In this document: one piece after another, positions 22,820-25,803 of the stretch | Numbering within the stretch: position 1 is the first letter of the stretch | How the letters are laid out: each line of letters opens with the position of its first letter | Source: Acetobacter sp. AN02 | GTDB taxonomy: Bacteria > Pseudomonadota > Alphaproteobacteria > Acetobacterales > Acetobacteraceae | NCBI RefSeq assembly: GCF_029759835.1 | Contig: NZ_JAJJND010000023.1 | Span: 1 to 32,143 of the forward strand | Direction: 5' to 3' | Length of the DNA stretch: 32,143 bases | The notes under the pieces: generated by a model | Told to the model about the DNA's origin: nothing | The model's input: the letters and a program-made list of their open reading frames with translations, nothing else | The model's database searches: none | Position numbers and translations under genes: made by a program

Positions 22820-23761
22820 TCAGTCCGCCCGCCCTTTTCTGCCCTCCGCCAGGCCATAACGCAGATAATGCCCCAGAGGATGAACCCCCGCCTCGCGAAT
22901 GTCCGGATTGGCCGCAAGATAATACGCCACGTCAAACTGACGCCCCGCACGCTCCGCCTCCGGCACGACCCGCACGTCATACGCACGGAACTCCTCCAGA
23001 AACTCCGCCCGCATCGCCTCCGTCACCCAGGGCCAGCGCGCCACCGGATCATCCCGCACATGCTCCAGAATCCGGCCGTTCGCCTCAATGTCCTCCGGCG
23101 TCCCGCTGGTCGGCAGATCCGTCAGATGCACGCCGCCCCGCAGCACGAAAAAGACAAATGACCGCCGCCCGTCCCCGTCGGTCCAGTCAAACCCGCCATA
23201 CCCCGCCCTGATCAGACGCAGCGTATAATCCGTATGCTCATGCCCGTACCGGCCAAACCGCGGATCCATATACCCGACCAGGGAAAACGCCTCCCGGGTC
23301 ACAACCATGCAGGCCCCGCTCAGAAAGGTCGAAACCCCGATATCCGCCGCCGTACACCCGCCCGCAATCACAATCTCCGGCCCGAAATAATCCGGAACGA
23401 AATTCGCATGACCATACCGGCGCCCGGCCTCGATCCACTCCTGCTCCCAGCCGAACATCCGGGGAACGACATCATCATCCATCAGAAGCGCCATATCCAC
23501 GCCCCGACAGGCAAACAGATAATACAGCCCCCGGTTCTTGTTCCAGGCAATCCCCCGGTTCACACCGCCAAGAACCGTATACCCCGCCGCACGCACCGCC
23601 TCTGCCGTGCCATCGGACGAGCCGTCGTCACAGACAACGATCTCCGCATCACAGACCGTCATCTCCCGCAGCAGCTCAAGCTGGCGAAGCACCGTCTCCT
23701 TGCGGTTCCAGGTCGTGATCGCAATCCCGACCCGCAGCCCGCCCCGATCCGTCCCGGTCAT
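22820..23761 (-). CDS. Family 2 glycosyltransferase with C-terminal NPD repeat
   Basis: The 313-residue protein has the GT-A fold of family 2 glycosyltransferases: GIAITTWNRKE at residues 12-22, IVVCDDGSSDGT at 41-52, the nucleotide-sugar metal site MDDDVVP (DDD at 95-97), FLSGACMVVTREAF, and an acceptor-side segment with YGHEHTDYTLRL. The last 45 residues carry a short motif (DVAYYLAANPDIREAG then PLGHYLRYGLAEGR) seen at the ends of various glycosyltransferases and surface proteins. No membrane helix is seen, so it is cytoplasmic. Its start overlaps the stop of a small upstream frame (ATGA); no strong ribosome site of its own is close. Sugar substrate unknown. Confidence 0.85.
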   Translation of the reverse strand: MTGTDRGGLRVGIAITTWNRKETVLRQLELLREMTVCDAEIVVCDDGSSDGTAEAVRAAGYTVLGGVNRGIAWNKNRGLYYLFACRGVDMALLMDDDVVPRMFGWEQEWIEAGRRYGHANFVPDYFGPEIVIAGGCTAADIGVSTFLSGACMVVTREAFSLVGYMDPRFGRYGHEHTDYTLRLIRAGYGGFDWTDGDGRRSFVFFVLRGGVHLTDLPTSGTPEDIEANGRILEHVRDDPVARWPWVTEAMRAEFLEEFRAYDVRVVPEAERAGRQFDVAYYLAANPDIREAGVHPLGHYLRYGLAEGRKGRAD

Positions 23762-24006
23762 CTCAGACAAGCAGACATCCCCCGGCCCTGAAAAAATCTG
23801 AAAAAGATCCGCAAAAAAGACCCGCCCCCCGGTTCTAGTAAAATCTCCCCCCGCTGCAAACGCAGCCGCACCGGAAACCACATAAAATCACGAATTACAT
23901 CCGGGTAAAAAATATAAAAGAGATAATTCCCGAAACAGAAAACGATCCGGGAATAATACACATCCGAAAATACAACCTGAGCACGATATCCCTCTGATAT
24001 TTCCAT
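23758..24006 (-). CDS. Possible small hypothetical protein coupled to the glycosyltransferase
   Basis: This frame encodes 82 residues, rich in Phe, Tyr, Val and Ile in the first half (VYYSRIVFCFGNYLFYIFYP) and in Arg and Gly afterwards. Two details argue that it is real: GAGGGA at 24015-24020 lies eight bases before its ATG, and its TGA overlaps the glycosyltransferase ATG as ATGA, the usual sign of translational coupling. Against it, no family is recognised, the composition is unusual and the DNA is AT-rich. It could instead be a leader peptide or a chance frame. Confidence 0.4.
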   Translation of the reverse strand: MEISEGYRAQVVFSDVYYSRIVFCFGNYLFYIFYPDVIRDFMWFPVRLRLQRGEILLEPGGGSFLRIFFRFFQGRGMSACLR

Positions 24007-24123
24007 TCAATTATTCCCTCAATAGAAATCAAAGCTGAAAACATTCGCCGGAACATGAATAAAATGTGATGAAATCAGGCGTGATTCCCGTATACAGTCA
24101 CAGCACGACAACCGGAGGAAAAG

Positions 24124-24322
24124 ATGCAGTCAGCAATTCTCAATGGAAAAATAATCAGCGCACTCGACGCAGTAGAATACAGAAAAAAGACAAATATATA
24201 TGGGTATATATACATGCCCTGAATGCTCAACTCCTGCAAGAGTGCATAAAAAATCTGAAACCTATGCACATTTTGAACATAAAGATAGAATAGAATCCTG
24301 CTCGCTTTGCCATAAAGCATAA
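24124..24322 (+). pseudogene. CoiA-like zinc-ribbon small protein, interrupted by a frameshift between TA repeats
   Basis: A perfect GGAGG (24114-24118) lies five bases before ATG 24124. The frame begins MQSAILNGKIISALDAVEYR and runs into a TGA at 24222. One frame over, from 24215 to a TAA at 24322, the DNA encodes CPECSTPARVHKKSETYAHF, then EHKD and SCSLCHKA. Together these match the N-terminal region of CoiA-type proteins: Gly-x-x-x-x-Ala start, CxxC, HFxHK, and a final Cys pair, about 68 residues. The break falls at two TATATATA-like runs (24194-24211). Adding one TA unit restores the frame, so phase variation is possible; decay or sequencing error are alternatives. GC is about 30 percent, suggesting transfer. 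Confidence 0.65.
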
Positions 24323-24413
24323 TAGTACCCGATCATTACTGGATACACGCGACAGTCTTCCGCCCGCCCCTCCACGCTTGCAATCACCCGCCGGAGGACT
24401 GATCTGTGTACCC

Positions 24414-25690: not shown

Positions 25691-25803
25691 GAAAATATAT
25701 ATATAAATCATATGGTTATGGAATTGTTTAAAAAATATGCAATATACAGAACAGCCCGGAAGACCGCGGAGTCCGGCAATCTGTCTGTGTTTCATGCACA
25801 AAG

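Follow-up and report, generated by a model that had tools for sequence, protein, structure and literature searches.

A small CoiA-like gene in the genome of Acetobacter sp. AN02 changes reading frame at a pair of short TA repeats, and this raises the question of whether the break is a phase-variable switch, as the initial annotation had proposed, or has another origin. The stretch of DNA analysed here (the window) is 32,143 nucleotides long, and the features of the gene and its surroundings are listed in Table 1.

Organization of the locus and position of the break

Table 1. Features of the split CoiA-like gene and its immediate surroundings.
Feature	Position	Strand	Remarks
Low-GC interval, 40% GC overall	23882-24377	.	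Flanked by a glycosyltransferase ORF (22820-23881, minus) on one side and the M19 dipeptidase ORF on the other
Ribosome-binding site region GGAGGAAAAG	24114-24123	+	Adjoins ATG 24124; read from sequence
First half, 32-codon ORF	24124-24222	+	ATG 24124; frame-0 stop TGA 24220-24222
First alternating run ATATATAT	24194-24201	+	
Second half, 40-codon ORF, other frame	24200-24322	+	ATG 24200; stop TAA 24320-24322
Second alternating run TATATATA	24205-24212	+	Frame change here, about 24206-24213

The first frame is opened, as initially annotated, by a ribosome site and start codon, with GGAGG ahead of the ATG. Its codons 1–30 correspond to columns 1–30 of the intact relatives described below, followed by two out-of-register codons and the TGA, and its product in this assembly has 32 residues and no conserved cysteine or histidine. 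The second-half ORF encodes CPEC, HFEHK, and CSLC, the continuation (CxxC, HFxHK, CxLC) that had been placed in another frame, and within it positions 24215–24319 correspond to columns 32–66 of the relatives. The window copy thus occupies two frames, and the claim that it is a single CoiA-like gene split between them is upheld by these ORFs and by the matches of intact relatives to both halves: a profile of three such relatives matches the first half over columns 1–31 (E 1.4e-8) and the second half over columns 23–65 (E 7.1e-17). On these profile scores, the homology of both halves to the intact relatives is well above chance.

The break lies, as had been claimed, at two alternating runs, with the GGG at 24202–24204 separating ATATATAT from TATATATA, and a register scan, in which BLOSUM62 scores against the three relatives were summed for each possible point of frame change, assigns it to the second of them. 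The best score of 217.3 is shared by frame changes after columns 28, 29, and 30, and a change after column 31 scores 216.0, 1.3 below the best; the first frame alone scores 35.7 and the second alone 119.7. The best scores after columns 28–30 place the frame change within the second TA run. At the junction the frames overlap by two bases, which leaves the window copy two bases shorter there than its relatives; frame-0 codon 30 and second-frame codon 31 share exactly these two bases, and when joined they read GYIY-T-CPEC in the register of the relatives.

The gene has a GC content of 36% and the stretch preceding it (23880–24123) one of 38%, rather than the approximately 30% first estimated for this island, and the 1-kb averages of the window range from 51 to 67%. 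M19 dipeptidase matches were found in 46 of the 49 genomes of the genus, and 30 of these loci, including the window's own, were compared. The uvrC gene is found on the far side of M19 in all 30, whereas the window's glycosyltransferase lies beside M19 only in its own locus and has no match, within up to about 1.5 kb upstream, in any of the 29 sister loci; the gene therefore sits at a change in gene order. A promoter scan gave nothing above chance, and neither an Rfam family nor a tRNA was found in the window.

Between 468 and 31136 the window is by Pfam an ordinary core-gene neighbourhood, with 21 of the 29 scanned ORFs matched, including LpxI, LpxD-type and other hexapeptide acyltransferases, OmpH, Omp85, an M50 peptidase, DXP reductoisomerase, CTP transferase, undecaprenyl diphosphate synthase, ribosome recycling factor, a class II tRNA synthetase, UvrC, and AICARFT. 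A longer alternating AT run of 11 bases (25695–25705) is present between the M19 dipeptidase and uvrC ORFs, and the uvrC of one sister genome (G028, L049 2905–4012) matches in two pieces in different frames, a possible frame break. A 28-base stretch at 23884–23911 is nearly identical (96%) to positions 1501–1528 of another locus of the same genome (L002), both copies being seemingly intergenic; a pattern built from it matches 9 of 61 loci, all of them in this genome, and it may be a small dispersed repeat.

Intact relatives and protein family

Three intact relatives carry both halves in a single frame, two in Asaia (G195 and G377) and one in another genus of the same family (G454). Among named genomes a single matching locus was found, in Asaia bogorensis GD-01 (L019), which is counted together with G377 as one genome throughout. 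The three proteins align without gaps over 67 columns (alignment A1), with the first ATG of the A. bogorensis protein at column 3; a more distant relative (G367) is excluded from this alignment and from every count out of three. Two of the three pass the cut-off of 27.5 bits for DUF7830 (Pfam PF25169), with 29.9 and 30.5 bits, and the third reaches 26.4 bits, slightly below it; the A. bogorensis piece that was scored began one codon past its first ATG. The second half of the window gene reaches 18 bits, below the same cut-off, and the first half has no match to DUF7830; matches of the intact relatives to CoiA_N are weak where present. The pattern of CxxC, HFEH, and CxLC is nonetheless preserved in the window copy, which keeps all seven of the invariant cysteine and histidine columns. 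The identification as a small CoiA-type zinc protein, which had been suggested from the sequence and is in keeping with the DUF7830 scores of two of the three relatives, is supported: the comparisons point to one CoiA-like (DUF7830-type) zinc-finger gene, DUF7830 itself being akin to the N-terminus of CoiA.

The more distant relative, in another genome of the same family, encodes an intact, single-frame protein of 83 residues with CxxC, HFEH, and CSLS in the same order as in the window gene, but it is longer and scores 20.2 bits against DUF7830, below the cut-off. It matches four of 72,556 plasmid records (Acidiphilium, Sphingobium, and two Methylobacterium), where no gene is annotated beneath the matches, the gene tables being incomplete; the window piece and the G454 protein gave no plasmid match. 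No named neighbour is common to the three of these four loci that were compared. The Sphingobium locus has genes for a putative RecB-like nuclease and for a DUF2779 protein nearby, and the Acidiphilium locus has one for a recombinase.

The gene is sparsely distributed. With one genome per species, the three-relative profile finds it in one of the 49 genomes of the genus, its own, and it occurs in one of 19 and two of nine genomes of the two other genera, a patchy occurrence such as would be expected if a dispensable gene were gained and lost. A DNA search with the island likewise returned only its own genome among the 49, a protein search of the family with the second half returned two of 200 genomes (its own and G195), and a DUF7830 search among relatives returned four of 195, including its own, with none above the cut-off. 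In a wider search at E 0.01, nine of 397 genomes were matched, namely its own, G195, G377, G454, and five with weak matches, among which G367 is a real intact relative; the other four (G054, G057, G058, and G411) lack the HFEH/CSLC pattern and were dropped. Alignment A1 used as the query recovered only the window's own genome in samples of the class (one of 289) and of the phylum (one of 299). No match was found in viral contigs and phages, and PHROGs, NCBIfam, and PADLOC yielded weak matches at most. A candidate in the same genus (G027, L007) was rejected, having an in-frame TAG and lacking the HFEH/CSLC part, although CMPC is present. Elsewhere in the class, G316 has a weak DUF7830 match, and G293 (L005) has CPSC...HHFKH in a frame of 432 residues and may encode a longer CoiA-like protein.

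Judged by its CxxC, HFEH, and CxLC motifs, the intact protein probably binds zinc. The three matches among solved structures are all weak zinc-finger matches, and a model of the A. bogorensis protein, begun one codon past its first ATG, is poor (mean pLDDT 58). The most that can be said is that this is probably a zinc-binding accessory protein of patchy occurrence; that it might contact nucleic acid or a nuclease partner is a guess by analogy with CoiA. No paper on DUF7830 was found in open PubMed Central, nor is a study of stand-alone CoiA-like proteins evident from the titles and the beginnings of abstracts of nine papers found there that mention CoiA-like proteins or CoiA homologues.

Interpretations of the break

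The two sides of the break are similarly conserved. Ahead of the break 20 of 30 positions are identical to G454, and beyond it 23 of 35, with corresponding counts of 16 and 20 for G195 and 15 and 21 for A. bogorensis. Where all three relatives agree, the window copy retains 13 of 18 columns before the break and 19 of 23 after, including all seven cysteines and histidines. The pN values between the window copy and G454 (0.19 before and 0.24 after) are close to those of the intact pair G454 and G195 (0.23 and 0.255), and those against the two Asaia copies are 0.29–0.32 on both sides. The break is undatable because dS, and likewise pS, is saturated, although with the conserved cysteines and histidines all kept and the halves similarly conserved it looks recent. 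No second disabling change is seen in the gene and the ribosome site is intact, so that with both halves conserved either the break is recent or the loss is not real.

We conclude that this accessory gene, encoding a CoiA-type zinc finger that stands alone, was probably inactivated recently. Compared with its intact relatives it is two bases short within the short TA run, which puts the second half out of frame; the loss would be real, recent, and not usefully reversible. The intact ribosome site and lack of further decay also fit a gene still in use or an error in the assembly, and the latter is the main rival to gene loss, although an unlikely one. The living strain would then have an intact gene, the short TA run having been read wrongly where the GC content of the draft sequence dips, and the 186 contigs of this draft, the dip in GC at the gene, and the absence of decay beyond the break are all in keeping with this. 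Against it, a Pfam scan of 29 long ORFs of the window, which was not designed as a systematic search for frame breaks, brought no further broken gene to notice, and among the 21 ORFs with matches the core genes extend over long single frames. To our knowledge, moreover, a four-unit dinucleotide run is not a classic site of short-read error.

Under the switch originally proposed, gain or loss of TA units would start and stop production of the protein often enough to be useful. The frame change does fall in one of two adjacent alternating runs, both halves are still conserved, and the frame arithmetic given for it, with one added TA unit or the loss of two restoring the full protein, is correct. 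The run has four units, however, below the survey cut-offs of six (PMC6321876) and five (PMC2651432) dinucleotide units stated in the accessible parts of those papers, and in the same portion of the latter, seven of eight five-unit dinucleotide loci are without frame-changing length variation. The corresponding codons are GGA TAT GTG TAT TCA in G454 and GGC TAT ATC TAT GCC in both Asaia copies, so that a TA run is absent from all three aligned relatives and the tract is not kept among them; TATATATA also occurs in 14 other runs of the genome (20 overlapping plus-strand placements merged to 15 runs, this one included). With a tract of four units, no TA run in the relatives, and a patchy gene, phase variation is very unlikely here, and no literature was found joining frameshift, phase variation, acetic acid bacteria, and Acetobacter. 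Recoding of the transcript has only a slight chance. Ribosomes would slip back two bases on AUA-UAC, where re-pairing of the tRNAs with AUA-UAU is conceivable, or else RNA polymerase would slip, yielding some protein of the relatives' length; the two-base codon overlap does yield the relatives' register across GYIY-T-CPEC, a −2 slip at AUA-UAC would keep its pairing as the sequence reads, and a hairpin is predicted at the junction. That fold is unremarkable, however (z-score −1.65, with 10 of 200 shuffles at least as good), and all four relatives seen, the three aligned ones and G367, are single-frame, so that there is no sign of a conserved break. At the stop, the context CCC-UGA is similar to the +1 site type of Listeria phage PSA, in which a proline codon directly precedes the stop according to the available part of PMC5009743, but a +1 slip there would cost the first cysteine of CxxC, and CCC-UGA arises by itself from the Cys-Pro-Glu codons read in the first frame. 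A combined form, in which slippage by one dinucleotide on UAUAUA (by the ribosome or RNA polymerase) would give a minor full-length protein and DNA slippage would tune it further, is an equally slim prospect. Two separate small proteins, the second a 40-residue zinc ribbon begun at its own ATG, are barely plausible: this ATG does precede CPEC and all seven conserved cysteines and histidines lie downstream of it, but a ribosome site before 24200 is not clear in the sequence, and at the columns concerned the residues in the relatives are G and Y rather than M.

Comparison with known systems

Small stand-alone CoiA-like zinc fingers are patchy in the genomes searched and have little described function. 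Read as recent gene loss, the locus offers a clean case of a recent break in an accessory gene in a relative of the acetic acid bacteria, and a caution that the position of a frame break within a short repeat is not enough to identify a switch.

With the scores given above, the intact relatives lie above or slightly below the DUF7830 cut-off, whereas the window copy, also stand-alone, lies in two frames and its pieces fall below the cut-off. Its second half is weakly similar to the N-terminal zinc finger of CoiA (Pfam PF25164; 14 bits, below the cut-off of 26.3). For CoiA itself, a PD-(D/E)XK nuclease region is predicted in the middle of the protein, as described in the part of PMC1189080 that was available; the window gene lacks this region, since its second frame ends at 24322, ahead of the M19 dipeptidase ORF. 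As switches, Helicobacter pylori oipA and Haemophilus influenzae hif both have a dinucleotide run at a site on which expression depends, as here. The oipA tract is reported to vary in the portions of the literature available, as is that of hif, which is a (TA)9-11 promoter tract in the accessible part of PMC2651432, whereas the run in the window has four units and lies in the coding region.
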